Shown in pieces: positions 207 to 39,350 of a DNA stretch of 42,666 nt. The stretch lies in contig JBFMCS010000015.1 of the NCBI GenBank assembly GCA_040754315.1, positions 1,823-44,488 of the forward strand, given 5' to 3'. The notes beneath the pieces were generated by a model that saw nothing but the letters and a program-made list of their open reading frames with translations, was not told the origin of the DNA and made no database searches. The first letter of the stretch is position 1; every line of letters starts with the position of its first letter. The position numbers were made by a program, and so were the translations under genes. This DNA comes from Bacillota bacterium. GTDB taxonomy: Bacteria > Bacillota > Sulfobacillia > DUSP01 > JBFMCS01.

Positions 207-227
207 GCGTTTGAGCGGGGAGTTACT

Positions 228-234
<7 letters not shown>
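207..234 (+). other. Left strand of the 23S precursor processing stem (pairs with 3206-3233)
   Basis: These 28 bases are the reverse complement of 3206-3233 with one mismatch (A opposite C). They bring the two ends of 23S rRNA together as the long helix cut by RNase III or Mini-RNase III during maturation. The pairing is read directly from the sequence; the processing enzyme is known biology and is not seen here. Confidence 0.85.
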
Positions 235-3213
<2,979 letters not shown>

Positions 3214-3266
3214 GTAACTCCCCGCCCAAACGCTCTAATCCCCTCTTCCCCCCTTTGCCCTAACCT

Positions 3267-3385
<119 letters not shown>

Positions 3386-3461: not shown

Positions 3462-3992
3462 GTGGGAATCCTACTGTCTTGGGGGATTCAGCTGCGAACA
3501 GCCCTACTTCCCATTGGTATCATCCTAGTCACGGGGCACGCCTTCATTATGGGATTGCCCCCCTTGGCCATGGAGCCTTCGCAACACCTCATCGTGGACA
3601 AGATGAAAAACGAGATGTTCCTTTACGAACAGGGCAGGCTCGTGGAGCGCTTTAACGTGGCTACCGGGCGACGTCCAGACATGACTCCGGAGGGCAGGTT
3701 CTACGTAGTATCAAAGTCGCTGGTTCCCAATGAGCCTGAACAACGGTACCTGTTCGGCACCAGGTGGATGGGATTGGGTGTGCCCGGCGGGGAGAAGGGT
3801 GATGTCTACGGCATTCACGGGACCGGGCAGCCCGGAACCCTGGGCGGCCATGAGTCTGCAGGGTGTATCAGGATGGGCATTCGCGATGCCGAGAGACTCT
3901 ACGACAGGGTCAGGGAAGGGGATACAGTAGTCTACATCATGTCTCACCGGTACTCCATTCTCATCCATCGCGCCATGAACCCTGCCTACTGA
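3462..3992 (+). CDS. L,D-transpeptidase (YkuD domain), membrane-anchored
   Basis: A 176-residue protein starting at GTG. Residues about 8-35 form one hydrophobic segment that would act as a signal anchor, placing the rest outside the membrane. The YkuD domain follows: residues 42-70 hold the opening strands, and the catalytic region has His119 in YGIHGTG and the nucleophile Cys135 in ESAGCIRM, the family's H...S-x-G-C-x-R pattern. Such enzymes make 3-3 cross-links in peptidoglycan or attach proteins to it, using the tetrapeptide stem. There is no LysM or other wall-binding domain. The gene stands alone between the rrn terminator and the arsR promoter. No strong ribosome binding site precedes the GTG, so the exact start is uncertain. 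Confidence 0.88.
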   Translation: MGILLSWGIQLRTALLPIGIILVTGHAFIMGLPPLAMEPSQHLIVDKMKNEMFLYEQGRLVERFNVATGRRPDMTPEGRFYVVSKSLVPNEPEQRYLFGTRWMGLGVPGGEKGDVYGIHGTGQPGTLGGHESAGCIRMGIRDAERLYDRVREGDTVVYIMSHRYSILIHRAMNPAY

Positions 3993-4044: not shown

Positions 4045-4089
4045 TTGACACCAGTGTCTATATATCCTAATATAGCGATAGCACTATAT
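4045..4089 (+). promoter_or_regulatory. Promoter with two palindromic operator candidates for the arsR-sulfur operon
   Basis: A consensus -35 TTGACA (4045-4050), a 17-base spacer and TAATAT (4068-4073). An inverted repeat GACAC-CA-GTGTC (4047-4058) with flanking A/T symmetry overlaps the -35. A second one, ATATAG-N8-CTATAT (4070-4089), starts in the -10 and runs downstream. Such placement suits repression by the ArsR-type protein encoded just after it; that link is inference. Confidence 0.75.
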
Positions 4090-4104
4090 AACGAGGTGGC
4101 TCTC

Positions 4105-4452
4105 ATGGACACTGGACCCTACCACGATAAGGTGGAGTTGCTTAAGGCTCTGGCCCACCCTACCCGCCTCTGTATTGTCCACGGATTGGTATCCAGGGGA
4201 GAGTGCAATGTAGCTGGTATCCAGCACTGCCTGGAAATGCCCCAGTCCACGGTGTCCCAGCAGCTGGCAATTCTCAGGCTGAAGGGAATAGTCCGGTCAG
4301 AGCGTTCCGGGACCGAGGTAAGGTACTCCGTGGGCAACGACAAGGCCAGGGAGATCGTATCGGTGCTTTTTGAGAATGACGTACCTTTTGTGTGGGACAA
4401 AGCGCAGAAAGGGAGCGCCAGTACAGGGAGGGCTGGAGATGGACGGCAATAG
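4105..4452 (+). CDS. ArsR-family winged-helix repressor
   Basis: The ATG at 4105 is chosen because ACGAGGTGG (4091-4099) precedes it; an upstream in-frame TTG is part of the promoter -35. The 115-residue product has the ArsR fold: N-terminal helices with LLKALAHPTRLCIV, then recognition helix QSTVSQQLAILRLKGIV (47-63), then the wing SGTEVRYSV. Cysteines are at 23, 34 and 42. The classic ELCVCDL metal motif is replaced by GECNVAGIQHC, so sensing of a thiol, persulfide or soft metal is possible but not shown. The stop overlaps the next gene by 14 bases. It most likely represses its own operon (CoA-disulfide reductase/rhodanese, tusA, dsrE). Confidence 0.88.
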   Translation: MDTGPYHDKVELLKALAHPTRLCIVHGLVSRGECNVAGIQHCLEMPQSTVSQQLAILRLKGIVRSERSGTEVRYSVGNDKAREIVSVLFENDVPFVWDKAQKGSASTGRAGDGRQ

Positions 4453-6103
4453 GTTGGTAATCATCGGTGGAGTGGCGGCGGGAACAAAGGTGGCCGCCAG
4501 GGCGCGCAGGGAGAACCCTGAGCTTGACATTACCTTGATTACCAGGGAGAGCCACATATCGTACGCAGGGTGCGGCATGCCATACTACCTGGGGGGTATC
4601 ATCAAGAACAAGAAGGAACTGCTCGTCAAGTCCCCCAGGGAGTTCGAAGCCGAGATGAATGTTAAGGTTCTCACTGAGCATGAGGCTGTATCGGTCCTTC
4701 CTGGAGAACACATAGTGGAGGTCGTCAGCAACAGGACCGGCGAGAAGAGTGCAGTCAGCTTCGATCGCCTGGTGCTAGCCACAGGGGCAACCCCCTTCAT
4801 CCCGCCCATCCCCGGTGCTGGACTAAAAAACGTGTTCACCCTCCGTACCGTTGAGGACGCCGTGGCCATTCGAGACCGCGTTGACGCGGGGCACTGCAGG
4901 AAGGCCGCGATTGTAGGCGCGGGGCTCATCGGGCTGGAAGTGGCGGAGAACCTTCACCTTAGAGGCATTGATGTCTCCCTGGTGGAACTTGATGCCCAGA
5001 TTCTCCCGGGTTATGACCGGGATGTCGCCCGGCTCGTAGAGAAGCACATCAGGGAGCAAGGCGTCACGGTGCACACCGGTACCAGGGTTCTTGGCCTCCT
5101 GGGTGATGGAGAGGTATCGTCTGTTTCCACTGACAAGGGCGATCTCCCGGCAGACACCGTTATCCTCTCGGTGGGCATCAGGCCCAACGCCAGTCTCGCC
5201 GCGGAAGCAGGAATAAGCCTCGGCCCCACAGGGGCCATCAGCGTGAATGGGGCCATGGAAACCAGCGTCCCTGGCGTCTATGCCGTGGGGGACTGCGCGG
5301 AGAATTCCAGCCTGGTTACCGGGGCCGCTGTCTGGTATCCCATGGGATCCACTGCGAACAAGGCAGGGAGAATCGCAGGTACGAATGTTGCCAGGAAAGA
5401 CGGGCCCAAGCAGGTCCTTAAAGGGGTTCTGGGCACCTCCATTGTCAAGGTCTTTGAGTGCACTGTGGCCCGGACAGGGCTCTCCGAGAAGGAGGCCAGA
5501 ATCAAGGGGTTCGATGTGGAGACCGTACTGGCCCCGTCTCCTGACAGGGCCCACTACTACCCCGGTAATAAGGAGATCATTACGAAGCTCATTGCGGACA
5601 AGGCCAGCGGCAAGGTGCTGGGGGGTCAGGTACTTGGAGAGGGTGTTGTTGACAAGCCCATCGACATTCTGGCCACGGCCATAACCTTTGGCGCAACCGT
5701 AAAGGATCTAACCCAGCTTGACCTTGCATACTCTCCTCCATTCTCCTCCGCCATGGCATCTACGCTTGTTGCTGCCAATGTCCTGGAAAACAAGCTGGAA
5801 GGGCGCTTCAGGGGCATTTCCGCGGAGGGCGTCCGGGACAGGGTGGACGACCCCGGCACGGTTGTTGTGGATGTGAGGACCCCTGAGGAGTTCACGCTCT
5901 ACGCCATACCCGGATCCCTCAACATACCCCTGTCGCAGTTGGAGGCAAGGCACCAGGAGATAGACGGCTCCAAGGAAATCATAATAGCCTGCAAGGTGGG
6001 AAAGCGCGCCTACCAGGCGTACCTGACCCTAAAACGGCTGGGTTTTGACAGTGTCGCTGTCCTTGAGGGCGGAGTCAAGGCCTACCCCTTTGAGATGGAG
6101 TGA
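4439..6103 (+). CDS. CoA-disulfide reductase-like flavoprotein fused to a C-terminal rhodanese domain
   Basis: A 554-residue protein. Residues 1-440 are a pyridine-nucleotide-disulfide oxidoreductase: FAD motif VIIGGVAAGTKVAARARR near the start, NAD(P)H motif AAIVGAGLIGLEVAENL, and the second FAD motif PGVYAVGDCAEN. Cys45 in ISYAGCGMPYY is the single redox cysteine typical of CoA-disulfide and persulfide reductases, in place of a CxxxxC disulfide. The last ~100 residues are a rhodanese domain (VVVDVRTPEEF) with active-site Cys518 in CKVGKRA. Known fusions of this kind reduce CoA- or other persulfides with NAD(P)H. The ATG at 4439 sits inside the end of arsR with GGAGGGCTGG before it. Translation is likely coupled to arsR, and tusA and dsrE follow closely. 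Confidence 0.9.
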   Translation: MDGNRLVIIGGVAAGTKVAARARRENPELDITLITRESHISYAGCGMPYYLGGIIKNKKELLVKSPREFEAEMNVKVLTEHEAVSVLPGEHIVEVVSNRTGEKSAVSFDRLVLATGATPFIPPIPGAGLKNVFTLRTVEDAVAIRDRVDAGHCRKAAIVGAGLIGLEVAENLHLRGIDVSLVELDAQILPGYDRDVARLVEKHIREQGVTVHTGTRVLGLLGDGEVSSVSTDKGDLPADTVILSVGIRPNASLAAEAGISLGPTGAISVNGAMETSVPGVYAVGDCAENSSLVTGAAVWYPMGSTANKAGRIAGTNVARKDGPKQVLKGVLGTSIVKVFECTVARTGLSEKEARIKGFDVETVLAPSPDRAHYYPGNKEIITKLIADKASGKVLGGQVLGEGVVDKPIDILATAITFGATVKDLTQLDLAYSPPFSSAMASTLVAANVLENKLEGRFRGISAEGVRDRVDDPGTVVVDVRTPEEFTLYAIPGSLNIPLSQLEARHQEIDGSKEIIIACKVGKRAYQAYLTLKRLGFDSVAVLEGGVKAYPFEME

Positions 6104-6118
6104 AAGGAGGCAGCAGAC

Positions 6119-6343
6119 ATGACAGAGAGGGTCATAAACGCCGAGGGCCTCCAGTGCCCGGGCCCCATCGTCAAGTTATTTGAGGAGGCCCGGAAGTGCT
6201 CCCCTGGAGAAGTCTTGGTAATCCAGGTTACGGACTATGGCTTCAAGAAAGACGTTGTCGCTTGGTGCAAGAAGACGGGCAATGAGCTCTTGGACCTGTC
6301 AGATGACAACGGTGTGCTGGTTGCCCGTATAAGGAAGAGCTGA
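6119..6343 (+). CDS. TusA-family sulfur carrier protein
   Basis: A 74-residue protein with the family hallmark LQCPGP, Cys13 being the persulfide-bearing residue, and the usual beta-alpha-beta ending (VTDYGFKKDVVAWCKKTGNE). An AAAGGAGG site precedes the ATG, and the gap from the reductase-rhodanese gene is only 15 bases. TusA-like proteins carry sulfane sulfur between a rhodanese or desulfurase and an acceptor. Here the donor could be the rhodanese domain next door and the acceptor the DsrE-like protein downstream. It might not act in tRNA thiolation as in E. coli, so no symbol is given. Confidence 0.92.
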   Translation: MTERVINAEGLQCPGPIVKLFEEARKCSPGEVLVIQVTDYGFKKDVVAWCKKTGNELLDLSDDNGVLVARIRKS

Positions 6344-6356
6344 GGGGGAAAGCGAA

Positions 6357-6824
6357 GTGAAAAAGACCATAATCGTCTTTAGCGGGGACATGGACAAGGC
6401 CATGGCTGCCTTCGTCATAGCCACAGGGGCTGCTGCCATGGGAGATGCAGTATCGATGTTCTTTACCTTCTGGGGGCTCAACGTACTGCGTAAGCCCGTT
6501 GCCCCTCGGGTGAAAAAAAGCCCGGTGGAGGCGCTCTTTGGATGGATGATGCCGAAGGGGCCAGGGAGGCTCGGGCTCTCCAAGATGAACTTCGGTGGTC
6601 TTGGAGCCAAGATGATGAAGGTTGTCATGAAGAAGAAGAACGTGCAGACCCTGGAGGAACTCATGAGCCAAGCCAGGGACATGGGAGTGAAGTTGATAGC
6701 CTGCAGTATGTCCATGGATGTCATGGGCCTGGATGAAAGCGAGTTGATTGACGGCATTGAAACAGGCGGGGTCGCCACTTATCTGGGCGAGGCAGAGGAA
6801 GCCAATGTCAACCTCTTTATCTGA
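6357..6824 (+). CDS. DsrE/DsrF-like sulfur-relay family protein
   Basis: A 155-residue protein starting at GTG, 13 bases after tusA, with GAGGGGG upstream. The N-terminus (KKTIIVFSGDMDKAMAAFVI) and the hydrophobic block GDAVSMFFTFWGLNVLRK are typical of the DsrE2-type group. Cys116 in KLIACSMSMDVMG is the likely persulfide-carrying residue. Members of this group accompany TusA and rhodanese in bacterial sulfur trafficking and are often membrane-associated. The gene closes the arsR operon, since the next gene has its own promoter. Its precise partner is unknown. Confidence 0.82.
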   Translation: MKKTIIVFSGDMDKAMAAFVIATGAAAMGDAVSMFFTFWGLNVLRKPVAPRVKKSPVEALFGWMMPKGPGRLGLSKMNFGGLGAKMMKVVMKKKNVQTLEELMSQARDMGVKLIACSMSMDVMGLDESELIDGIETGGVATYLGEAEEANVNLFI

Positions 6825-6850: not shown

Positions 6851-6879
6851 TTGCATAAGTATGCACTTCCCTGTATACT
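6851..6879 (+). promoter_or_regulatory. Promoter of carA
   Basis: TTGCAT (6851-6856), a 17-base spacer and TATACT (6874-6879) lie 27 bases before the carA ATG. No PyrR-type or arginine-type leader is evident in the short 5' region. Confidence 0.7.
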
Positions 6880-6906: not shown

Positions 6907-7986
6907 ATGAAGGGATGGCTGGTGCTGGAGGATGGGGAGGTCTATGCTGGCAGGTCTTCCGGAGTGAGCAGGGCAATCCAGGGGGAGCTGGTCTTCAATA
7001 CCGCCATGACCGGGTACCAGGAGATGCTCACAGACCCGTCCTACACCGGCCAGATCCTTGTGCTGTGCTATCCCCTGACAGGCAACTACGGGGTTAATCC
7101 CTTCGACAACCAGTCCAACCGGGTGGCGCCCTCCGCCCTGGTGGTCCGGGAGGCCTGTACCGAACCCAGTCACTGGCAACTCTCAGGAACCCTGGGGCAC
7201 TACCTCCGCGACCGCCAGACACCCTACCTTGAGGGGGTGGATACTCGAGCGCTGGTGAGGCGCCTCCGGAGGATGGGCTCCATGAAGGGGGTCATAGTCT
7301 TCCAGGAACACGCTCCAGACGTGGAAAGGCTCAGCCAAGAGGCATCTGGCTGCCACAGGGCGGACCATGTCAAGGAGGCTACCACCGGGGTACCCTACAC
7401 CCTGGAAGGCGATGGCCCTCACATAGTCGTGCTCGATCTTGGACTGAAGGCCAGCATACTAAGGCATCTCCGGTTGGCCGGAAGCAGGATTACCGTTGTC
7501 CCTGCCTTCACCCGAGCCAGGGAAGTGCTGGGGCTTTCCCCCGCCGGTGTGCTTCTGTCCAACGGGCCGGGTGACCCCAAGGACCTGCCGGAAATCGTCC
7601 ACGAGGTGGGGCACCTGATCGGCCGTGTTCCCTTGCTAGGGGTATGCCTGGGGAACCAGATCCTGGCACTGGCCCTAGGCGCGGACACGTACAAGATGAA
7701 GTTTGGACACAGGGGAGGGAACCACCCAGTCAAGGAAGGCTCCACCGGGCGTATCCTCATAACCTCTCAGAACCATGGCTACGCTGTGAGCGAAGAGAGC
7801 CTCAAGGGCACAGGACTAAAGGTTTTGTACAGAAACCTGAACGACGGTACCGTGGAGGGGCTTGCACATTGGAGGATGCCCGTTGTATCCGTTCAGTTCC
7901 ACCCAGAAGGCGGCCCGGGTCCTCAAGACTCCTCCACCATCTTCAAGGCGTTTATCGAGAGAGGCTCTTCCGCTCTTGCGGGATAG
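6907..7986 (+). CDS. carA: Carbamoyl-phosphate synthase small (glutaminase) subunit
   Basis: A 359-residue protein of normal length for CarA. The N-terminal CPSase small domain has the typical GELVFNTAMTGYQEMLTDPSY. The C-terminal class I glutamine amidotransferase has Cys247 in GVCLGNQ, and His332 and Glu334 in FHPEGGPGP as the triad. It hydrolyses glutamine and passes ammonia to CarB for carbamoyl phosphate used in pyrimidine and arginine synthesis. Two points are odd. No carB follows: the gene has its own promoter and ends in a strong terminator. And the usual CLGHQ is CLGNQ. The ATG at 6907 has CGGGGGAGG before it. Confidence 0.95.
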   Translation: MKGWLVLEDGEVYAGRSSGVSRAIQGELVFNTAMTGYQEMLTDPSYTGQILVLCYPLTGNYGVNPFDNQSNRVAPSALVVREACTEPSHWQLSGTLGHYLRDRQTPYLEGVDTRALVRRLRRMGSMKGVIVFQEHAPDVERLSQEASGCHRADHVKEATTGVPYTLEGDGPHIVVLDLGLKASILRHLRLAGSRITVVPAFTRAREVLGLSPAGVLLSNGPGDPKDLPEIVHEVGHLIGRVPLLGVCLGNQILALALGADTYKMKFGHRGGNHPVKEGSTGRILITSQNHGYAVSEESLKGTGLKVLYRNLNDGTVEGLAHWRMPVVSVQFHPEGGPGPQDSSTIFKAFIERGSSALAG

Positions 7987-28905: not shown

Positions 28906-28980
28906 GCTGGCGTAGCTCAACGGCAGAGCAGCTGATTTGTAATCAGCAGGTTATGGGTTCAAGTCCCTTCGCCAGCTCCA
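28906..28980 (+). tRNA. tRNA-Thr (anticodon TGT), integration target
   Basis: A 75-base cloverleaf with acceptor GCTGGCG/CGCCAGC, discriminator T and encoded CCA (28978-28980). The anticodon stem GCTGA/TCAGC encloses TTTGTAA, so the anticodon is TGT (codon ACA). Its 3' part from 28936 is repeated at 39497-39541, the other end of the integrated element; the tRNA remains complete on this side. Confidence 0.95.
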
Positions 28981-28984
28981 GCAT
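28936..28984 (+). repeat. attL core, 49 bp
   Basis: Identical to 39497-39545. It runs from the anticodon loop of tRNA-Thr (TTTGTAATCAGC) through CCA plus GCAT. Bases just outside differ between the two copies, which fixes the core limits. Confidence 0.93.
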
Positions 28985-29000
28985 AAACCGCAAATCAAGA

Positions 29001-29024
29001 AGGGGTCTCCATCGCGAGACCCCT
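29001..29024 (-). terminator. Hairpin, probable terminator for leftward element transcripts
   Basis: A 9-bp stem AGGGGTCTC (29001-29009) with GAGACCCCT (29016-29024). On the minus strand the stem is followed by TCTTGATTT, a moderately T-rich tail. It would stop int-operon transcripts before they run against tRNA-Thr. Confidence 0.55.
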
Positions 29025-29029
29025 CAAAT

Positions 29030-29054
29030 GTGGCAACCGTGTGGCAACGCAGAG
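29030..29054 (+). repeat. Left pair of putative integrase arm-type sites
   Basis: Two direct copies of GTGGCAAC (29030-29037 and 29041-29048), 11 bases apart, followed by GCAGAG. The whole 25-base block recurs near the right end at 39351-39375 with two differences, in the same orientation. Confidence 0.7.
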
Positions 29055-29056
29055 TA

Positions 29057-29084
29057 GAAGGCCCCCCGCTATGAGAGGGCCTTC
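29057..29084 (+). terminator. Hairpin, possible rightward terminator
   Basis: Stem GAAGGCCC (29057-29064) with GGGCCTTC (29077-29084), a 12-base loop and TTTGCC then TTTCTTCTC on the plus strand. It may end plus-strand transcripts that enter from sigH or tRNA-Thr. The T tract is poor. Confidence 0.45.
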
Positions 29085-29120
29085 TTTGCCTGTTTCTTCT
29101 CAAACCCAGGCTCTTTCCTG

Positions 29121-29603
29121 TTAGTGATTTAGCCCATCATCTTCAGATGGTGGCGAAGCATTGGTAGTCTGCATGTCCGCCCTTTGCTGTTTTCGCCATG
29201 CTGAATACAGCCAGAATAATGCACCCCCCAGGGCTGCGTAGCCTGTGAAGGTGGCGAGGTTTCGCACTGTCCATGCTCTCTTAGGCCAAGCCTCGTATTC
29301 ATCAAGCTGCTTCAGCGCTTCCCATCCTTTGTCGGTGACCATCTCGACATCAAGCCGGCCTGACTCCAGCTCACTTCGAAACTGCAACACCGCCTCCAAT
29401 GGTGGTTCCCCTTGCCACGGCCGAGGTGCCGGTGCCTCGCGCCAAGCGGACACGGCCCAAGTCATCCCCGTCCATCGGTCAACCTTGAAATACATGGGAG
29501 CAGGAGCGGCCGGGACTGTGACGGCAGACCAACGAAACATTATGGCAAGGATTACTGCCAGACAACAGACTATAGGATACCACAGGCCCCCTCTCGCTTT
29601 CAT
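29121..29603 (-). CDS. Two-helix membrane protein of the element, function unknown
   Basis: A 160-residue protein. The ATG at 29603 has AAGGAGG upstream on the minus strand. Hydrophobic segments lie at about residues 8-26 and 115-135, enclosing about 90 residues that include YFKVDRWTGMTW and a charged helix (LEAVLQFRSELESGRLD). The tail is polar and basic, then acidic. It is the last gene before attL, after int, a place where accessory genes often sit. I do not recognise a family. It might be cargo that protects the host or the element, but nothing in the sequence shows that. Confidence 0.75.
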   Translation of the reverse strand: MKARGGLWYPIVCCLAVILAIMFRWSAVTVPAAPAPMYFKVDRWTGMTWAVSAWREAPAPRPWQGEPPLEAVLQFRSELESGRLDVEMVTDKGWEALKQLDEYEAWPKRAWTVRNLATFTGYAALGGALFWLYSAWRKQQRADMQTTNASPPSEDDGLNH

Positions 29604-29652
29604 CCCTGTTTGCCTCCTTGATGGTCAACCTTCATTCTCGGTCGCTCTTCCT

Positions 29653-30828
29653 TCAAGGACCCTCCTTCAAGCCTTGAAGGGCGGCGTTCATCTTCTCCAT
29701 GGCCTGAGTTTTAAGATCCATGCCCACGTGGGTGTAGGTATCCAAGGTGATTGAGATGGTGCTATGGCCAAGGATCTCCTGAACCGTTTTGGGAGACTGG
29801 CCAAGCTCCAGCATCAGGGTAGCGAAGGTGTGCCTCAAGTCGTGAAACCTGACATGGGGGAGACCTGCCTTCCTGAGACACCCGTCGAAGTGCCTGGCCA
29901 TGTTCCTGGGGTCAATGGGCGTGCCAATGGGCGTACAGAATACAAGGCCCTGGTCCCCGTAGGCCGCACCCACAAGAAGGCGTTCCTCGTTCTGGCGGAT
30001 CTTGTGTTTCTTTAAGGCCGCCAGGATGTTGGAGGGCATGGGGATTGTCCTCCTTGAACGGGCACTCTTGGGTTCCTGGAAGACAAGCCGGGTCTTCCTC
30101 TCGCCGTCCTCCTGGTCGTACACCCGGCAAAGCCCCCGTCTCACCGTGAGGGTGCCTGCCTTGAGGTCCAGGTCGTCCCAGCGAAGGGCCAGCAGCTCAC
30201 CTAAGCGCAGGCCTGTCCCCAATGCAAGGAGAAAGGCAGCGGAGAGCCTGTCCCCTTCAACCACTGAGAGGAACTGCCTCGCCTCCTCCTGGGAAAGCGG
30301 CCTGATCTCCTTCTTCTCCTCCTTGGGCCTGGTGGTGGCCTCGGTGACGTTCCTGGCCAGCAGGTTATTCCTGACAGCCTGCTTCAGGGCACCGTGAAGA
30401 ACCGCATGGATGTACCTGACTGTTCTAGAAGAGAGGCCCTCTGCCCGCTTCTCGTTGTACAGGCGTTGGACCATCTCGGGCCGCAGGGCCTTTAGGGGGA
30501 TGTGTCCGATTGCCGGCTTCAGGTGGACCCTGACAAGATACGCGTAGCTGTCCCACGTGGTGGGGCGAAGGTCTGGCCTCTTGTACTCATGGAGCCAGAT
30601 GTCAATCCACTCGCCAACGGTTGTCTTGGTGGGCGCTGTGAAATTGCCGGCCTGGAGATCGACCTGGGTCTTGGCCATCTTCTCCTGAACCTCTTTGCGG
30701 GTTTTGCCAGAGAAGCTGGCCCTCTTCAACTTGCCTGTTTCCGAGTCCCTGCCGGTAGTGAGACGGCCTGCCCATGACCCGTTGGGCCGCCGGTAGATAC
30801 TGCCTTCGCCGTTACTCCTCTTCCCCAT
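29653..30828 (-). CDS. int: Tyrosine recombinase integrase
   Basis: A 391-residue phage-type integrase. It has an N-terminal arm-binding domain (GSIYRRPNGSWAGRL), a core-binding domain (about 68-160, with TVGEWIDIWLHEY) and a catalytic domain with Arg208 (GTGLRLGELLALRW), Lys254 (QEPKSARSRR), His329-x-x-Arg332 (HDLRHTFATLM), His355 (LGHSTISIT) and nucleophile Tyr365 (DTYTHV). All catalytic residues are present, so the element may still move. It overlaps the excisionase-like gene by 17 bases and faces attL in tRNA-Thr. Confidence 0.96.
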   Translation of the reverse strand: MGKRSNGEGSIYRRPNGSWAGRLTTGRDSETGKLKRASFSGKTRKEVQEKMAKTQVDLQAGNFTAPTKTTVGEWIDIWLHEYKRPDLRPTTWDSYAYLVRVHLKPAIGHIPLKALRPEMVQRLYNEKRAEGLSSRTVRYIHAVLHGALKQAVRNNLLARNVTEATTRPKEEKKEIRPLSQEEARQFLSVVEGDRLSAAFLLALGTGLRLGELLALRWDDLDLKAGTLTVRRGLCRVYDQEDGERKTRLVFQEPKSARSRRTIPMPSNILAALKKHKIRQNEERLLVGAAYGDQGLVFCTPIGTPIDPRNMARHFDGCLRKAGLPHVRFHDLRHTFATLMLELGQSPKTVQEILGHSTISITLDTYTHVGMDLKTQAMEKMNAALQGLKEGP

Positions 30829-31012
30829 GTCCGGGGCCCCCTCTCTCTCGCTTCCTCAGGAAAGCCTCCACATCACTTGGCCGGAAACGCCAGGCATAAT
30901 CCAGTTTGATGCCCTTGATCTTTCCATCGGCCAGGTAACGCCTCAAGTGTCTCTCCGACAGGCGCAGGTATCGTGCCACTTCTTTGAGTGTCATCAACTG
31001 CTGGTCCTTCAT
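30812..31012 (-). CDS. Excisionase-like MerR/HTH_17 DNA-binding protein
   Basis: A 66-residue protein with the helix-turn-helix LTLKEV-type opening (MTLKEVARYLRLSERHLRRY) and the wing GIKLDYAWRFRPSDVEAFL typical of excisionases and AlpA. The ATG at 31012 is chosen because AAGGAG lies 9 bases upstream; a GTG at 31030 is also in frame. It overlaps int, so the two are surely co-translated. It probably sets the direction of recombination. Confidence 0.85.
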   Translation of the reverse strand: MKDQQLMTLKEVARYLRLSERHLRRYLADGKIKGIKLDYAWRFRPSDVEAFLRKRERGGPGHGEEE

Positions 31013-31097
31013 GCCGTTCCGCTCCTTCACTGTGTGCTATAATGAAAGGGCAGGGCAAGCCCTATGGGTCTTGCTCGGTACTGGAGGGCGCTTCTCC

Positions 31098-31571
31098 TTA
31101 GCTGGCGGAGGCGTCCTCCTCCTCGTCTTCGAATCGCACACCAGGCATAAGCCTCCTGAGGTCTTCCTTGATCCGAGCTATGTAGTGGGAAGGCTCCTCC
31201 ATATCCTCCAGGGCGAATTGTCCCAGCACCTTGTCCAATGCCGGTCCTGTCTGAATAAGCGTCTCTCCCCGGTCCACGCAAAATTCTCCCTTGGCCATCA
31301 GCTCGGCCAGCTCCATCCCGTCAATTAGGCCTTGTAGGTAGAAGGCCTCGCTCTCCTTGACCGCAAGAGCAGCGTATGTGTTATCCAGATTGAGAACGAC
31401 CCGGTACCCGTCAGCATTGAGCGCCCCCTTCAAGAGATGGCCCAGTTCAACGCATTTCCCCTTTTCCTCCTGGTATTCGGGATCGGTTGCCTCCAGGCGG
31501 TCCAGTGCCACCCCCGTACGCTCAACATAGAGCCTCTCAGCCAGCTTCTTCGCGGCATCAGTCTTAGCCAT
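31098..31571 (-). CDS. Helical protein of unknown function at the head of the xis-int unit
   Basis: A 157-residue, mostly helical, acidic protein with a strong start: ATG at 31571, AAAGGAG upstream, and a promoter at 31619-31647. Its middle (KESEAFYLQGLIDGMELAEL) loosely resembles the small helical proteins with an F-x-x-G-x-x-x-G helix found in clostridial mobile elements (DUF6809-like), but the match is weak. The tail is EDEEEDASAS. Being first in the xis-int unit, it might regulate excision. No DNA-binding motif is visible. Confidence 0.75.
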   Translation of the reverse strand: MAKTDAAKKLAERLYVERTGVALDRLEATDPEYQEEKGKCVELGHLLKGALNADGYRVVLNLDNTYAALAVKESEAFYLQGLIDGMELAELMAKGEFCVDRGETLIQTGPALDKVLGQFALEDMEEPSHYIARIKEDLRRLMPGVRFEDEEEDASAS

Positions 31572-31618
31572 TCCAATTGACTCCTTTCATGTGGTATGGG
31601 CTGCCCTGCCCTACCCAT

Positions 31619-31652
31619 ATTATACCACGGCTTGCAAGGACATGCAAGGACA
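31619..31652 (-). promoter_or_regulatory. Promoter of the xis-int unit with tandem 10-bp repeat
   Basis: On the minus strand TTGCAT (31642-31647), 17-base spacer, TATAAT (31619-31624). The -35 region lies in two exact tandem copies of TGCAAGGACA (plus strand, 31633-31642 and 31643-31652), which could be a binding site for a regulator. Confidence 0.72.
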
Positions 31653-32234
31653 CCATATGTTGTATTGTGCCAAGAAAGCTTGTCAGAAGCCAGCCCCGTT
31701 GTCGCACCGTTGCCACCGGCCCCCAAAACAGGCCATCTAGCAGGAACATCCCGTGGGTGAAGTGATATGTAGTCATGAGGTTAAGGCTCCCGGAGGAGGG
31801 GAAGGGCGCGCCCTGAGGCGCAAGAACCTGTCCGGCGCTGAGGTTGTGGGGGCACTTAAAGGAGCCTCGCCAGCAGGTACTTTTCAATGGCGCCCCCTTC
31901 TAGAGCCCTGGAGGGGCATTCCTCCCGGGGCCATGTTAGGGTATTCACTGCCCCCACGGACCCCTTCAGAGCGACCGAAGAGTGGTGTCTCCCGGAGCTT
32001 AGCGGCCATCTCCTGAGAGGGGGTATCGCCTGGCGGCTACGCCCACTCCTCGGTGGCGGGGCCATCATGCCGCGGCGCCGGTGGCCGCCCCGGTTCGACG
32101 TGGGCAGCCCGGCCCCCCCGGGGGGCCTTGGAAAGAACCCCCCCTCACGCATGCGCCTAAGGTTTTTCTTAGCGGCTCCCGGAAAAATTCCGCAGGAGAA
32201 TCGCGGCAACTCGTTGAACCCCACGATGGTTGGT
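31653..32234. other. Non-coding 0.58-kb gap with clustered short hairpins
   Basis: No reading frame here looks like a protein on either strand: the open frames are arginine-, proline- and glycine-rich, lack start signals and conserved motifs. Short palindromes cluster here: GGGCGCGCCC near 31804, a GGCC-rich C/G hairpin near 32111-32127, CTAAG-GTTTTT-CTTAG near 32157-32172 and CGGAAAAATTCCG at 32180-32192. A GTTGCCAC (reverse of the arm-type site) is at 31709-31716. It may be a decayed gene, a structured RNA or a DNA site such as a packaging signal. Confidence 0.5.
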
Positions 32235-32525
32235 CTATGCAGGCCACCGGTCTCCCGCCGCCACCGGGGGATGCAGGAACCGCGCCAAGCCCGGCTCCTC
32301 GGCGATCTCTTCAGCCTGGATTTCGGCTGGCATCTCATGGAAGTGGAATCTTATCACTCCCACGAACGGGTCACGCTCCCGCGCCTCGGCCAGCAGGCGT
32401 TCGGAACGCCGGGTAAGCTTCGCGCCGCCACCCTCGACTCCCGCGTAGACCAGGACAAGCAGCGCCTCGCTGTCATCCGGGCTGAACTTGTCCTCAAGCC
32501 AACGTATACGGCCCTTAAGTACCAC
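32235..32525 (-). CDS. Small phage-like protein, coupled to the upstream gene
   Basis: A 96-residue protein starting at GTG one base after the stop of the gene at 32527, so the two are translationally coupled. The opening VLKGRIRWLEDKF is a short amphipathic helix seen at the start of many small phage proteins of unknown role. The middle LLVLVYAGVEGG is a beta strand, and IRFHFHEMPAEIQAEEIAEE follows. I do not recognise a family. In some prophages a pair like this precedes terminase, but here no terminase follows. Confidence 0.6.
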   Translation of the reverse strand: MVLKGRIRWLEDKFSPDDSEALLVLVYAGVEGGGAKLTRRSERLLAEARERDPFVGVIRFHFHEMPAEIQAEEIAEEPGLARFLHPPVAAGDRWPA

Positions 32526-32526
32526 T

Positions 32527-32859
32527 TCAACTCACCCCCCGCATGACGGCGGCCTTGACCTGCTTCTCCAGGGCCTCCACCCGGCCCTCAAGATCTGCAA
32601 CCTCCACGGCCCGCAAAGCCGTAGAAGCAACATAAGCGAGACACCGGGCCCTCTGGAGCGCATCGGCGTCAGAGGCCTGCACATCATAGATGGCCTGGCG
32701 AAGCAAATCCAGCACATCCTCGGCGGTTTTCAATCGAATTGAGTTTGGAAAACGGCTGGTGACGCTGGCCTTTCCATCCTTTGAACCCACTTGAACCTTC
32801 TTTTGCCGCGCCCACTCACGGGCATATTCACGGTGTTTTGCCTTGTCCTTGTAGGGCAT
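32527..32859 (-). CDS. Small phage-like protein with basic N-terminus and coiled coil
   Basis: About 110 residues from the ATG at 32859 (MPYKDKAKHREYAREWARQK), with GTGAGGTGG upstream; an in-frame start at 32874 is also possible. The basic first 20 residues are a common opening of small phage and HNH-associated proteins. The rest is helical (AEDVLDLLRQAIYDVQASDA) and ends in a short coiled coil (LEGRVEALEKQV). The overall plan resembles small-terminase-like or DNA-binding phage proteins. No defined family is claimed. Confidence 0.65.
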   Translation of the reverse strand: MPYKDKAKHREYAREWARQKKVQVGSKDGKASVTSRFPNSIRLKTAEDVLDLLRQAIYDVQASDADALQRARCLAYVASTALRAVEVADLEGRVEALEKQVKAAVMRGVS

Positions 32860-32910
32860 ACTCCACCACCTCACAGTTTTTCGATAGACACTGGGCTTAT
32901 GTCCTCTGGA

Positions 32911-33510
32911 CTAGCCAATGGCCTTCAGCACCTTCTTGAGAAGGGCCACCGCCTGGGGATGTTTTCGCAGTTCCTCCAGGTCAAGCACAGTGGCCTTCTT
33001 GCGCTTAAGGTCCCCGCTCGCATGGTCGTACCAGAGATGGCCAACCTGGAGTTTCCCGGCCTTCTCGAAGTAGGCCAGGTACACACGGCCCGTCCGGACC
33101 TCTTCACCGGCCTCCTGCTCCCAATAAGAAGGTTCTGAGTAAGGTTTCTGCCTTGCGGGTTCAGCCACGGCCTTAGCCTCCTTTTTCACTGTTGCCACCT
33201 GCTCCTTAGGGCGGGCCTTCCCCACGAACTCCTCTAGTAGCCTCCAGCACTCCTCGGACCCGGCGATCTCCTCAGCGTATAGGATTACCGGTTTGCCGCG
33301 CCGCTCTTCGTCAACCGCCGGCTCATACCAATAGGTATACATCCTCAGTGCTTTCTGTTCCCGGTAGAACTCCAGCCTAACCCTGCCTCTCAGCTCGACA
33401 ACCCGAGGCTTCTCCTCCAGGGCCGGGTCCCCCCCTGGCGCAAACTGATGCTGGTTGCCCACTCCCACAGGGTTTCTGACGTAAGAAACCGTCCTCAACA
33501 CACAACTCAC
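32911..33510 (-). CDS. Unknown protein with two copies of one domain
   Basis: A 199-residue protein with a GTG start; a stop in frame just upstream limits the start. Two segments, about residues 42-100 and 136-199, follow the same pattern: GRV-x-L-x-(F/Y)-(Y/F), then L near +13, a WY pair, a D/E-K/R-rich turn, V-(I/L)-x3-EE and LL-(E/K)-(E/K)-(F/V)-(V/L). The linker between them is rich in K, E and A. I know no family with this pattern. The gene lies between the Q-rich protein and the two small coupled genes. Confidence 0.72.
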   Translation of the reverse strand: MSCVLRTVSYVRNPVGVGNQHQFAPGGDPALEEKPRVVELRGRVRLEFYREQKALRMYTYWYEPAVDEERRGKPVILYAEEIAGSEECWRLLEEFVGKARPKEQVATVKKEAKAVAEPARQKPYSEPSYWEQEAGEEVRTGRVYLAYFEKAGKLQVGHLWYDHASGDLKRKKATVLDLEELRKHPQAVALLKKVLKAIG

Positions 33511-33577
33511 TACTGAACTGGGCTATGACGTTCTTCCTGTGCTTTTGAACTGCATCAGGCAACATTGCCAAGGCGCA

Positions 33578-35212
33578 TCACCTCATCCACGGTGCCAGCG
33601 GTTGTTGGCTCATGAGGCCATACTGGTTCCAGATCCCCGGCCAGTAGTTCGCCTGTTGCCCACCAAGAGGCGGCGTCCCTCCCCTTTGGGCTCCAAACCG
33701 GCCTTGGAGGTAGTCCACGTACTCCTGGATCACCTGGTTCAACGGGGCCTGTCCCGTGAGAACCCGGACATCCTCCTGGGCCATGGCTGTGGCATTCTGG
33801 TAAATGGAGGTCATGTCCACCGGCTGCGGCTGCATATACTGGCCCACCGCAAGCCGTTCGCCCTCGGTCAACTGGCTCATGGTGTACCCCTGCTGCAACT
33901 TCTGGTAGGCCTGGTTAGCCAACACCTGCTGCGGCGTAACCCGGCCCGCAAGGGCCACTTGCTGCTGCTGGAGGCCCAGCTGGGCCTGCCGGTAGTCCTG
34001 TTCCCACTGGGCTTGCTGCTGCGCCAAGCCGAACTGCTGGCTGAACTGCTGCTGCTGGGCGCCGAACCTTTGCTGTTCGAGCCCGAACTGCTGGCCGAAC
34101 TGTTGCTGCTGCATCCCCAGGCCCGCCGCCTGGAGGCCGTACTGCATGGCGCCCATCTCAGCCTGCTGCCTCATCTGGGCCTCGCCAAGTCCCGCCTGGA
34201 CCCCCAGGGTGCCAAACTGCTGTATGGCACTCAACCTCTGCTGGGCAAAGCCCATCATGGCGTTGAACATCTGGGTCTGGAGGCCCCTGAATTGCTCGGC
34301 GATTACCGCCTCTTCAGCGAGAAGGGCTCCCGTCCTGAACCGCTGCTCCACTTCCAAGGCTATGCCGGACTGGAGGAGGCCCCGGCGGTTGAGGTCTGCC
34401 TGGAGCCGTTCCCTCTCCACGCCGATGGATTCACGGAGCAGGGCCAGGGCATTCTGCGTTGCCGGGTCCATACCGCCCATGGCCTGCTGGAACATGGACA
34501 TCATCCGGGATTCGGCTTGGTCAAAAGCCGCCAGGGTCTGATCAAGATACTTCATCGCAAACATTTGGAGGCTCGGGGTCGTGGCTTGCGAGCTGATTTG
34601 TTGGGCTGCCTTAACGCCGCTCCAGATTGCCGCTTCATAGTCAAACGGCTGGCCCGCCGCGCCATCCTGGGCGCCGTACCGCATCTGTTCCTGCTGCCAT
34701 GCCTGGTCTATTATCGCCCTGCGCCCCGCCATGTCGTCCGTATAGCCTCCAGCTACCCCGGTTCCACCCGGCCCGGCCTTCGCAGGGCCACGCTCAAGAA
34801 GCGGGCTTGCCTCGCCTGTACCAACCCCGGCTCCAGCGCCGGGCGTTGATATGGGCTGCCCTGCGGGGGGTATGCCGTGGAGCATCTGGCGGAGGTCCCT
34901 CTCGATCTTTGCCCGGGGGTCTACCCCAGCCCAGCGATCTACCCCGGCCCCGGCCCCCTGCTTCACTCCGGTTGGGGATGGAGATGCCGGTGGTGTTGGC
35001 GTCGGCGTGGTCACAACGGGCGGGGGAGTCTTAATCAGGTTCTTCCCCGTAGGCGTTGACGGTATAGTCTCCGCCCGGCCTGTATATCCCGCAGGCCCAG
35101 GCCCCGACACCGCTTTCTGCTTGCGCTTCCACTCGGGCTCAACATCCATCCGGCCCCGGCTTGCCGCTTGCTGCTTCTGCCAACCCTGTAACCCCAGAAC
35201 ACCCATGGCCAT
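33578..35212 (-). CDS. Glutamine-rich helical protein, virion- or ejection-protein-like
   Basis: A 544-residue protein with AGAGGAG before its ATG. Residues about 1-115 are Pro/Thr/Gly-rich and disordered (TPTPTPPASPSPTG). Residues about 170-330 are helical (LQMFAMKYLDQTLAAFDQAE). About 335-430 is extremely Q-rich with a near-repeat (QQQQFGQQFGLEQQ and QQQQFSQQFGLAQQ), and the tail (about 440-544) is mixed and aromatic. This composition resembles internal virion, ejection or tail-associated proteins of podoviruses, though I cannot assign a family. It is the only structural-like gene in the element. It has no signal peptide or membrane helix. Confidence 0.75.
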   Translation of the reverse strand: MAMGVLGLQGWQKQQAASRGRMDVEPEWKRKQKAVSGPGPAGYTGRAETIPSTPTGKNLIKTPPPVVTTPTPTPPASPSPTGVKQGAGAGVDRWAGVDPRAKIERDLRQMLHGIPPAGQPISTPGAGAGVGTGEASPLLERGPAKAGPGGTGVAGGYTDDMAGRRAIIDQAWQQEQMRYGAQDGAAGQPFDYEAAIWSGVKAAQQISSQATTPSLQMFAMKYLDQTLAAFDQAESRMMSMFQQAMGGMDPATQNALALLRESIGVERERLQADLNRRGLLQSGIALEVEQRFRTGALLAEEAVIAEQFRGLQTQMFNAMMGFAQQRLSAIQQFGTLGVQAGLGEAQMRQQAEMGAMQYGLQAAGLGMQQQQFGQQFGLEQQRFGAQQQQFSQQFGLAQQQAQWEQDYRQAQLGLQQQQVALAGRVTPQQVLANQAYQKLQQGYTMSQLTEGERLAVGQYMQPQPVDMTSIYQNATAMAQEDVRVLTGQAPLNQVIQEYVDYLQGRFGAQRGGTPPLGGQQANYWPGIWNQYGLMSQQPLAPWMR

Positions 35213-35246
35213 TTCCCACCACTCCTCTCACCTTCGAAGAAAGACT

Positions 35247-35318
35247 TTACCCCCGGACCAGCAGCCCGCAAAGTAGACCCATGAAGCCGGCCAGCACAGC
35301 AATAGGCCGTATCCTCAC
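35247..35318 (-). CDS. Tiny single-helix membrane peptide
   Basis: A 23-residue frame starting at GTG, with GGGAGGTG about 8 to 10 bases upstream. It is basic at the start (MRIRP), then a hydrophobic run (IAVLAGFMGLLCGLLV), then RG and stop. It fills the 144-base gap between the nuclease and the Q-rich protein. It looks like a one-helix membrane peptide, perhaps holin-like or toxin-like, but such a short frame can occur by chance. Confidence 0.35.
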   Translation of the reverse strand: MRIRPIAVLAGFMGLLCGLLVRG

Positions 35319-35356
35319 CGGCGCATCACCTCCCAATCTTCGACGTGAACAGGTCT

Positions 35357-35905
35357 TTAACCACTGGCGCACTCCTTATGGGGATGCCGCAGGCCCTCCA
35401 GGGCGTGGCGGTAGAGATTCTCATGTATCCACCGCGCCGACAGGTCTGGGGCAAGGTAGATCACCGGGAAGCCATACCTGTGTGAGAAGGCCGTAAGGCT
35501 TGCCAGGAGTGCCTTTGGGTTATACTGGGAACGGTAGTCGCCGCGCACTATCTTGCCGAAACCGTCAGCATCCTCCACCAGGAGTGCGAAAAAGTCCAGC
35601 TGCCGGCCACGGATACATTCATTCTCGAACCGGGTCCTGTCCTTCAGGGTCTCCACCAGCTCATCAACGCTGCCCTTTCTCTCGATGGCCGCCGCGAAGT
35701 AGGTCTTGCGGAAAAACCCCAGCCCCGGGCATGCCGGGAGCATGATGGAGTAGTCCCCGGTTTCGAGGCTGCGCCGGTGGTGGGGTATCCCCTGGCCATC
35801 CAGCCAGGCAAGGATGTGGCCGTTCTCCTGCTCCCTGGTGTCATGGAGCACGGTTAGTGAGGAGGCCAGCTCCTCGCGCTCCTTATCGGTGAAGTGGTAA
35901 TGCAT
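35357..35905 (-). CDS. ERCC4-type (ERKxxxD) nuclease
   Basis: A 182-residue protein from the ATG at 35905, with GGAGGG 8 bases upstream; the frame is open further up, but that part overlaps the helicase gene and lacks sense. Motifs of the XPF/Mus81-like nuclease fold are all present: DTREQE (Asp22, Glu25), LETGDYSIM (Gly50-Asp51-Tyr52), AIERKGSVDEL (Glu75-Arg-Lys77, Asp81) and the helix RTRFENE. Such single-domain nucleases in phages and plasmids act on branched DNA during replication or recombination. It is 19 bases after the helicase gene and likely one operon with it. Confidence 0.88.
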   Translation of the reverse strand: MHYHFTDKEREELASSLTVLHDTREQENGHILAWLDGQGIPHHRRSLETGDYSIMLPACPGLGFFRKTYFAAAIERKGSVDELVETLKDRTRFENECIRGRQLDFFALLVEDADGFGKIVRGDYRSQYNPKALLASLTAFSHRYGFPVIYLAPDLSARWIHENLYRHALEGLRHPHKECASG

Positions 35906-35924
35906 CGGGGTTCCCTCCCCCCCC

Positions 35925-37820: not shown

Positions 37821-38380
37821 GGCAACCACCTCCGGGAAAGCCGCCAGCCATGAACCTGTTCCTCGGGGTCGCGGGAGGACAAGAGGTCCAAGACATGCTC
37901 GATGAAACCCACATCGGCAACAAGACCTGGGACTTCTTTCATGTTGTGCGGACGTATTCGGTGGAGTGCCCGAAAGAGAAGGCAGAGGTCCTGGTAGACA
38001 GCGTTCGCCTTGTCCTTGAAAGCCCGCGCCAATTGCTGTTCCTCCAGGACCGCCGGGTTAGGCCGGTGTCGGGTCCTCCCGGAGGACCGCAAGAGGCCGA
38101 AGTCCACGCCTATCCGCTTGGCCGCCTCCAGGGAAGAGATGCCCAGGAGAGTCGAAACGAAGTCCACGGCATCTCCGTGGGCCTGACACCCAAAACAATG
38201 AAAGCGCTTGTCCTCGAACACCACGAAGGAAGGCGCTTGTTCAGGGTGGAAAGGGCAAACGCCAGACCACCGAGAACCGCGCCTCCGAAGGCCCAGAGTG
38301 GGTGCATAGAAGGAGATCACGTCATGGAGTCCAACTTGCTTGACCGCCTCAAATATGGTAATCTGGCATTGAGGAAGCAA
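37814..38380 (-). CDS. CHC2 zinc-finger protein (DnaG N-terminal domain only)
   Basis: A 188-residue protein starting at TTG, with GGGAGA just upstream. The CHC2 zinc ribbon of DnaG-type primases is clear: Cys42, His45, Cys62 and Cys65 in VCPFHPEQAPSF and FHCFGCQAHGD, followed by the usual AVDFVSTLLGISSLEAAKRI. The TOPRIM catalytic core of DnaG is absent. The C-terminal ~90 residues are helical and unlike DnaG. It likely recognises DNA for priming together with the helicase encoded next, whose gene overlaps its end. Confidence 0.88.
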   Translation of the reverse strand: MLPQCQITIFEAVKQVGLHDVISFYAPTLGLRRRGSRWSGVCPFHPEQAPSFVVFEDKRFHCFGCQAHGDAVDFVSTLLGISSLEAAKRIGVDFGLLRSSGRTRHRPNPAVLEEQQLARAFKDKANAVYQDLCLLFRALHRIRPHNMKEVPGLVADVGFIEHVLDLLSSRDPEEQVHGWRLSRRWLPW

Positions 38381-38419
38381 TATCTCCCGCCCCCCTAGCC
38401 CGGCGTGCAGACCGGGCTG

Positions 38420-38626
38420 CTACTTTAAAACCCGTTTTTCGGCTTCGGCCTCAATCCAGCGTTCAAGCCCTACTGTTGGAACCCTGAGAGCACGGCCAAG
38501 GCAAAGCACAGGAGGGCCATCCTTCCGGTGTGCCAAAGCGTAGGCATGATTCCGGGAAATGCGAAGGATTTTGGCCATCTCCGGTATTGTGAGCAAGAGC
38601 CCCCTGGTGTCGCGCTGCTCCATCAT
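38420..38626 (-). CDS. AlpA/excisionase-like helix-turn-helix protein
   Basis: A 68-residue protein with GGGGAG upstream of its first ATG. The helix-turn-helix is LTIPEMAKILRISRNHAYAL and the wing ends GRALRVPTVGLERWIEAE, the HTH_17/AlpA pattern. It is a second protein of this type besides the one next to int. In P4-like satellites AlpA-type proteins activate the integrase or replication genes. It begins 6 bases after the Xre gene stop. Confidence 0.85.
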   Translation of the reverse strand: MMEQRDTRGLLLTIPEMAKILRISRNHAYALAHRKDGPPVLCLGRALRVPTVGLERWIEAEAEKRVLK

Positions 38627-38632
38627 CCCACA

Positions 38633-39232
38633 TTACTCCCCGCTGGGTTCCTTGAAGCACTCGGTGAAACGCGCCCGGATCTCCTCGAGCTTGTGCTCCC
38701 GACTTTCTTTGATCTGCTTTCTAAGATGAACAATCGCTTGCTTTGATAGGGCGTCTCTCTTCCTCTTTAATTCCTCGGGGGGCACCTCGTGGCCTGGAAC
38801 CCTCAAGAGCCGTGCCCACCTGAACACGACCCCGAGATTCTCCTTGATTCGGCGAACTGCCCACTCCAGCCTGGGATGAGCCTTCTCATCGCCGCCGGCA
38901 GCCTCCAGCGCCGCGTGAAGGGCACCCAACGCAGGGGAATATTCCGCGTGGAAGAGTTCGAAGGCCCAATCCTCCGGGTCGTAGGCGGCAACATCCACTA
39001 GGATGTCAATCCACATCGCTAGTACCCTGAACTCCTCGTGGTTCCTCATCAGCGCGTCAGGTTCGATGCCGAAAATGGCCCCGAGCTTTTGGGCCGACTT
39101 CCCGCTCAGTTTCTGTTGCCCCCGTTCTAGCTGAGATAGGAAAGGTTGGCTTATGCCCACCCGTTGGGCCAGATCCTGCTGGGTCAGCCCCCGAGTTTTC
39201 CGCAGTTGCGCCAGATCAATCACGGCCGACAC
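38633..39232 (-). CDS. Xre-family regulator of the element
   Basis: A 199-residue protein. The N-terminal helix-turn-helix (about residues 5-58) is LRKTRGLTQQDLAQRVGISQ followed by PFLSQLERGQQKLSGKSAQKL. The remaining ~140 residues are helical and charged, with no protease (LexA-type) or toxin motif visible. As first gene of the leftward operon with palindromic sites in its promoter, it is probably the repressor that keeps the element quiet. There is no divergent gene beside it, unlike typical phage immunity regions. Confidence 0.88.
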   Translation of the reverse strand: MSAVIDLAQLRKTRGLTQQDLAQRVGISQPFLSQLERGQQKLSGKSAQKLGAIFGIEPDALMRNHEEFRVLAMWIDILVDVAAYDPEDWAFELFHAEYSPALGALHAALEAAGGDEKAHPRLEWAVRRIKENLGVVFRWARLLRVPGHEVPPEELKRKRDALSKQAIVHLRKQIKESREHKLEEIRARFTECFKEPSGE

Positions 39233-39266
39233 CTCCCAAGCCCTTATAACGAACCCTCTAATGAGA

Positions 39267-39294: not shown

Positions 39295-39350
39295 GCGTCG
39301 TACAACCAAATTCCCCTCTTGAATTTCATGTTCCTCTGCGCCCCGGTTTG

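Follow-up and report, generated by a model that had tools for sequence, protein, structure and literature searches.

What does an ArsR/SmtB-type repressor sense when it stands in front of genes for a reductase-rhodanese, a TusA and a DsrE2 protein, and what do these genes do together? The question is raised by an operon at 4045–6824 of a 42,666-nucleotide stretch of a Bacillota genome (GCA_040754315.1, contig JBFMCS010000015.1), the whole of which is here called the window; the source genome comprises 2.92 Mb in 65 contigs and is 100% complete by tool estimate. The genes, all on the + strand, follow one another in the order arsR (4105–4452, 115 residues), a coenzyme A (CoA)-disulfide/persulfide reductase gene with a C-terminal rhodanese domain (4439–6103, 554 residues), a tusA-type sulfur carrier gene (6119–6343, 74 residues) and dsrE2 (6357–6824, 155 residues, GTG start), the reductase start overlapping the arsR end by 14 bp. 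Pfam models, all above their curated cut-offs, identify HTH_5 in the first product, Pyr_redox_2, Pyr_redox_dim and Rhodanese in the second, TusA in the third and DrsE_2 (PF13686) in the fourth, and thus confirm the ArsR gene and the sulfur-handling genes behind it that a preliminary description of the sequence had listed. We consider it probable that the operon clears persulfides under the control of an ArsR repressor responsive to sulfane sulfur. The genes are taken to be one functional system because their linkage is conserved, their domains are often fused, their catalytic cysteines are invariant and an operator is shared, and the same evidence upholds the earlier proposal of an ArsR-repressed unit that handles persulfides.

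The arrangement was followed through the class and then through the phylum. In the class, a search of 154 genomes with the window ArsR gave seven strong matches, all seven of which adjoin a reductase gene. Five of these loci carry the full set of ArsR, reductase, rhodanese, TusA and DsrE2; as to the other two, the contig of L048 ends after TusA, and in L049 the ArsR frame is broken, DsrE2 is matched in part and TusA is not matched. For the phylum, a profile of the class ArsRs together with a further member, L043, was run against 398 genomes that sample the phylum evenly and returned 101 matches at or above 96 bits in 95 genomes, the next match scoring 85 bits. Stretches of 12 kb (shorter at contig ends) were taken around the 100 phylum matches other than the window, and these 100 ArsRs make up a set of 108 together with L043, which comes from a metagenome-assembled genome (MAG), the window ArsR and those of six relatives in the class. 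Many of the loci belong to shared families or genera, and the counts given here ignore kinship. An ArsR is called linked when a reductase gene on its strand follows it within 400 bp, which holds for 66 of the 108. Among these 66, rhodanese is present in 63, TusA in 49, DsrE2 in 48 and all of the domains in 47. The four enzyme domains share one open frame of ~800–860 codons in no fewer than 36 of the 47 complete sets (the window copy lying outside this check), and the window represents a split form, with the four domains in three genes. In addition, one ArsR (L167) has a reductase 860 bp downstream, four (L176, L184, L187 and L188) sit directly behind a DsrE2 domain, and three of the unlinked ArsRs are no more than 700 bp from the end of their contig.

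The same association is seen when the reductase is taken as the starting point. Among 30 class loci, the best 30 of ~105 reductase matches, all seven with this ArsR have TusA or DsrE2, and none of the 23 without it has either (a Fisher test was run). The operon arrangement is beyond chance, since 47 of the 66 pairs carry the full set and the reductase-first loci divide cleanly, 7 against 23. As a control we used 20 next-tier ArsRs, in whose ~10-kb stretches no reductase, TusA or DsrE2 match was present; 22 other class ArsRs served as a second control set. A different pairing was observed in the class at L040/L050 (G038:C34), where a DsrE2 69% identical to that of the window lies beside another ArsR (33% identical) without a reductase. 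L060 and L062 hold a similar pair, and these loci appear to be a second ArsR-DsrE2 arrangement in the class.

The best PDB match of the reductase is Archaeoglobus fulgidus Npsr (6pfz, E 1.1e-122), followed by the B. anthracis CoADR-rhodanese (3icr), with the E. faecalis CoA-persulfide reductase (8a56) lower in the list of matches. The flavin-side C45 and the rhodanese C518 align with the catalytic cysteines of both 6pfz and 3icr. Thus FAD and NAD domains, a C-terminal rhodanese, a flavin-side cysteine and a rhodanese cysteine are all present, which is the architecture of Npsr and of CoA-persulfide reductases. Because its score falls under the cut-off of the model for CoA-disulfide reductases, the enzyme is given the CoA-persulfide-reductase/Npsr-type name, a name of architecture and not of proven activity. 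The small proteins are assigned by PF01206 for TusA (69.8 bits against a cut-off of 28.6, with a CPGP motif at 13–16) and by PF13686 for DsrE2 (216.7 bits against 25); both fall under the narrower NCBIfam cut-offs, with 36.3 against 78 for the TusA equivalog and 98.6 against 210 for SulfCarrDsrE2. The DsrE acceptor gene of the preliminary description thus does encode a DsrE protein, one of the DsrE2 type, and the cysteine numbers given there (Cys45, Cys518, TusA Cys13 and DsrE Cys116) were right. In the aligned copies these catalytic cysteines are invariant: C45 in 66/66, C518 in 63/63, Cys13 in 50/50 and Cys116 in 48/48. The source genome contains no DsrC, which removes the usual Dsr end-acceptor of TusA/DsrE chains, and a Dsr-type acceptor was therefore rejected.

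The regulator has exactly three cysteines, which, counted from the ATG, are C23 in α2 (codon 4171–4173), C34 in the α2–α3 turn (4204–4206) and C42 at the end of α3 (4228–4230). They are kept in 103, 88 and 97 of the 108 subfamily members, respectively. C23 and C42 occur together in 93 members and in 62 of the 66 linked ones, and at least two of the three cysteines are found in 106 members (the frame of L244 is cut before position 24, and C23 cannot be judged there). C34 is lost in 20 of the 108 and in 17 of the 66 linked members, and was rejected as the primary sensor core on that account. The controls differ: none of the 20 next-tier ArsRs has C23 or the joint pair, one has a cysteine at the C42 column, via a misaligned insert, and the 22 other class ArsRs have neither C23 (0/22) nor C42 (0/22). 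When the three cysteine columns of the profile were masked to X, the same 101 top matches were returned (compared by eye), so the conservation is not an artefact of the search; the margin shrank to 90.0 versus 89.0 bits, owing to two shortened matches.

The arrangement of these cysteines sets the regulator apart from the characterized types. There is no CxC in α3 (the spacing is C34-x7-C42), no α5 DxHx10HxxE and no histidine in residues 79–94, in line with the earlier remark that the protein has three cysteines and no classic metal motif. A RexT-type vicinal cysteine pair is not present, C42 being flanked by His41 and Leu43. Known ArsR persulfide sensors, studied largely in Proteobacteria, are described as having one cysteine in α2 and one in α5 (PMC10509353). 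In phmmer alignments the SqrR/BigR α2 sensor position corresponds to His26 of the window ArsR, with C23 three residues earlier, and no cysteine follows residue 42 in this protein or in the aligned part of 83 of the 108 members. Membership of the SqrR/BigR-type sensors was rejected because both sensor cysteines are missing, and by its residues the regulator is not of the known SqrR/BigR/HlyU persulfide-sensor type.

The fold is nonetheless close to theirs. The PDB sequence neighbors of the window ArsR are PagR, SqrR and BigR, and RexT is not among the 25 matches at E ≤ 1e-3. An AlphaFold2 model from a 76-row alignment has a mean predicted local distance difference test score of 87.8, with a poor tail past residue 90, and shows a winged-helix fold whose best Foldseek match is SqrR (38–40% identity over ~90 columns), PagR and HlyU also being among the best. 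The predicted fold is thus SqrR-like. The model reaches Z 15–16 to HlyU and SqrR with CadC and CzrA close behind, and the fold alone is therefore uninformative on the inducer, as is NF033788 (metalloregulator ArsR/SmtB subfamily; 83 bits against a cut-off of 55), a broad fold-level model. In the model, α2 spans residues 19–31 and α3 residues 36–43, and C23 and C42, being approximately equidistant from the α2–α3 turn, could on geometric grounds face each other.

What DNA would such a protein bind? Motif finding in 65 linked upstream regions gave the palindrome TATATyntAATATTanrATATA, of width 22, with a score of 1117 compared with ~500 for shuffled sets. At a threshold set to the 99% level of shuffles, the motif is found in 57 of the 65 linked regions, in 56 of the 65 in five-fold cross-validation, and in 20 of 41 unlinked regions, which lay outside the training set. 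The window site, TATATCCTAATATAGCGATAGC at 4061–4082 (+ strand, motif score 18.6), has no rival in the 42,666 bases, where every other site stays at 9 bits or less. It spans the −10 box TAATAT (4068–4073, + strand), which lies 17 bp from the −35 box TTGACA (4045–4050, + strand); the pair matches at 10 of 12 positions and is the sole site in the region that resembles a promoter. By itself, the promoter scan does not exceed chance (one site found versus a shuffle mean of 1.5), and the weight of this promoter comes instead from the relatives: in 22 of 57 linked ones TTGAC begins precisely 16 bp ahead of the operator, the spacing also seen in the window, with 12 of the 57 having no TTGAC in range. 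The preliminary description had begun arsR at a TTG at 4045, which is in fact the start of the −35 box; the ATG at 4105, behind GAGG at 4093–4096, is most likely the start. It had also placed two palindromes at the promoter. The AT-rich one is the conserved operator, and the other, GACACCAGTGTC at 4047–4058 (10/12 self-complementary), was rejected because GACA-bearing 12-mers occur in only 2 of 66 linked upstream regions.

The motif also stands before most complete modules that no arsR precedes. In tests on held-out loci, class reductases without this ArsR have none (0/23). Among 30 reductase loci in genomes with an unlinked ArsR, it precedes 10 of 12 loci with TusA and DsrE2 compared with 2 of 18 without them (p = 1.2e-4), and the 12 complete modules have no arsR in front. 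Four of the ten motif-bearing modules are from one genus and have arsR behind the module; when the four modules with arsR behind are dropped, the comparison is 6/8 versus 2/18 (p = 0.003). The module therefore stands under an ArsR-type operator, to which this ArsR subfamily presumably binds. For the source genome a wider regulon was rejected: TATATCNTAATAT, with one mismatch allowed, occurs at four places against three for a reversed control, the three other places reach matrix scores of 4.9, below 2 and 2.2 bits, and a matrix scan of 92,470 further source-genome bases, in loci that partly overlap, revealed nothing above 9.

A working scheme for persulfide clearance can be put together from these elements. 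The ArsR repressor would occupy the palindrome that covers the −10 box of its operon until a sulfane-sulfur species, such as CoA persulfide or polysulfide, bridged a pair of its cysteines and so released it; the likeliest pair is C23 (α2) and C42 (α3), with C34 as a spare. DsrE2, through Cys116, and TusA, through Cys13, would collect and carry sulfane sulfur; Cys518 of the rhodanese would receive it, and bound CoA would swing the sulfur to Cys45 by the flavin, where NAD(P)H would reduce it to H2S, such that persulfides would be cleared from the CoA and thiol pool. In Npsr/CoAPR-type enzymes, the rhodanese cysteine is described as taking sulfane sulfur and CoA as carrying it to the flavin-side cysteine, with H2S leaving (PMC7969121, PMC9405070), and both E. 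faecalis CoAPR and A. fulgidus Npsr are reported to reduce persulfides (PMC9405070, PMC7969121). Because the characterized enzymes accept sulfur at the rhodanese first, the reductase is more likely the end of the chain than its start. The order first proposed, from reductase to rhodanese to TusA to DsrE, is thus likelier reversed, with DsrE2 and TusA feeding in (PMC7969121, PMC9405070). We infer this direction of flow, as we do the inducer, the bridging pair and a role in detoxification rather than respiration, and to call the regulator persulfide-sensing is plausible. A bolder claim, which we advance tentatively and at a little under even chances, is that this phylum-wide, so far uncharacterized subfamily constitutes a new persulfide-sensor class, its C23–C42 (α2–α3) bridge replacing the α2–α5 one and coupling directly to the DNA-reading helix pair, and is a chief regulator, both in cis and in trans, of the reductase-rhodanese-TusA-DsrE2 relay in anaerobes of the phylum.

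Several observations weigh against persulfide clearance under this repressor. No reductase lies within 400 bp downstream of 42 of the 108 subfamily members, and among 35 genomes with an unlinked ArsR in the set, 24 have a reductase match elsewhere and 11 have no reductase match at E ≤ 1e-40. The reductase scores 424.4 bits against the 578.8 cut-off of the NCBIfam CoA-disulfide reductase equivalog TIGR03385. C42 is lost in 11 of the 108 members and replaced by histidine in five of these, none linked to a reductase, and such a replacement would fit metal binding better than sulfur bridging. The operator type precedes 10 of the 20 next-tier ArsRs, many with CVC metal-type motifs; as a mark of this subfamily alone it was rejected, and the palindrome is a general operator type, common to ArsR proteins of other clans. 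In Bacteroides fragilis, the available portion of PMC6158253 ties the fused BF638R_0572 to resistance to diamide, a matter of thiol oxidation, and not to persulfides. Finally, the literature search brought up no experimental work on this ArsR subfamily.

Persulfide clearance and its alternatives partly overlap, and the probabilities that we attach to them need not sum to one. One alternative is a thiol-oxidation switch, in which ArsR would sense disulfide stress or peroxide via a disulfide and the reductase would keep CoA reduced. The enzyme does fall in the CoA-disulfide-reductase superfamily, a B. fragilis bmoR strain that also lacks the fused homologue is reported to be more sensitive to diamide (PMC6158253), and the cluster of peroxide-sensing ArsRs that includes RexT is said to lie near NADH oxidoreductase genes (PMC10509353). 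However, the carriers that accompany this ArsR, TusA and DsrE2, handle sulfane sulfur, the vicinal pair of RexT is missing from the window protein, the closest solved ArsR relatives are SqrR, PagR and BigR with RexT outside the matches noted above, and A. fulgidus Npsr is described as inactive on CoA-disulfide (PMC7969121). We therefore regard an oxidant switch as unlikely. To much the same degree we doubt that the operon serves growth on elemental sulfur or polysulfide, or the delivery of sulfur to biosynthesis, rather than detoxification. Sulfur respiration has been proposed for Npsr-type enzymes (PMC7969121) and TusA and DsrE2 are trafficking proteins, yet the source genome lacks DsrC, the usual Dsr acceptor of TusA/DsrE chains, the operon contains no biosynthetic acceptor gene, and the characterized chemistry ends with the release of soluble H2S. 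Least probable is a metal or metalloid sensor in which C23, C34 and C42, with the histidine variants, would bind As(III), Cd(II) or Zn(II), since, although the three cysteines cluster in α2–α3, histidine replaces C42 in 5/108 and the operator type is common to CVC-type ArsRs, the α3 CxC and α5 DxHx10HxxE are missing, loss of C34 in 20/108 members (17/66 linked) leaves two cysteines, and the linked genes handle sulfur. The five histidine variants (L219, L223, L230, L231 and L241) are unlinked members that keep C23 and C34, and may be a metal-binding offshoot of the subfamily.

Comparison of the proposed persulfide-clearing operon with known systems reveals relatives of its parts. It shares with the SqrR/BigR/HlyU/SoxR-type ArsR persulfide sensors (cluster 4 of the sequence similarity network in PMC10509353) the winged-helix fold and a repressor linked to sulfur genes, but the window ArsR has C23 one helical turn earlier in α2 and C42 at the α3 end. 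In E. faecalis, CstR is likewise a sulfane-sulfur-responsive repressor over a CoA-persulfide reductase with rhodanese, CoAPR (PMC9405070); CstR, however, is of the CsoR family, with a fold unrelated to that of ArsR, and TusA and DsrE2 are not mentioned for the operon in the available portion of that source. BF638R_0572 of B. fragilis has reductase, rhodanese, TusA and DsrE2 in the same order under repression by a co-encoded regulator (PMC6158253), although there the domains form one fused protein, the regulator BmoR is of the MarR family and the phenotype is diamide sensitivity, compared with three genes and an ArsR in the window. In Bacillus licheniformis, homologues of DsrE, rhodanese and TusA are clustered under the CstR-like YrkD, which senses sulfane sulfur (PMC9918477), but that sensor is of the CsoR type, the pathway is the oxidative SQR/PDO one, and the accessible text mentions no CoA-persulfide reductase. 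A. fulgidus Npsr (6pfz, PMC7969121), both of whose cysteines align with those of the window enzyme, differs in that no operon partners, TusA or DsrE are described in the part of that report at hand. RexT (PMC8960804) shares the ArsR fold and thiol chemistry in the α3 region, in its case by the vicinal Cys40–Cys41 pair. In addition, the Rex regulon of Caldicellulosiruptor is reported to include a TusA and CoA-disulfide-reductase operon (PMC8579813).

No published account of this ArsR subfamily with the reductase operon was found, the subscription literature lying mostly outside the search. The enzyme set and relatives regulated by sulfane sulfur are already known, and there is a credible chance that the sensor geometry is new. 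If so, ArsR proteins would have gained sulfane-sulfur sensing more than once, the fused and split reductase-rhodanese-TusA-DsrE2 system would receive a defined regulator and operator, and a persulfide regulon would become predictable from sequence in many anaerobes.

Some loci and neighboring features complete the description. A peptide-pattern scan of genome contigs found a sole locus, L043, on a contig labeled as a Desulfuromonadales MAG. Its lone subfamily ArsR (4971–5249) has C34 and C42 but lysine at 23 and adjoins a selB-like gene (by eye), with no reductase within 10 kb and no operator (score −2.2). At L093 (2–1287; the same place as L152), frames for a membrane protein, a TusA-like protein and a small protein precede the arsR-reductase pair on its 5′ side, and by eye resemble sulfur/selenium transport sets. 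In the window, the operon is preceded by an rRNA operon (23S, 227–3215; 5S, 3268–3384) and, between the two, an L,D-transpeptidase frame (3462–3992; YkuD by Pfam). Directly 3′ of dsrE2 lies carA (6907–7986). Because a promoter-like site, TTGCAT and TATACT separated by 17 bp at 6851–6879 (by eye; under the promoter-scan cut-off), precedes carA, the operon probably ends with dsrE2 and carA probably has its own promoter. Farther downstream, 28906–40544 looks like an element integrated at tRNA-Thr (28906–28980): a tyrosine-recombinase-like frame (29653–30828, minus strand) lies near the tRNA gene, and beyond it are primase/helicase-like, XRE-like regulator and DNA methylase-like frames, all named by eye from their translations. 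At the window end, two neighboring frames at 40686–42448 resemble, by eye, an insertion-sequence transposase pair.

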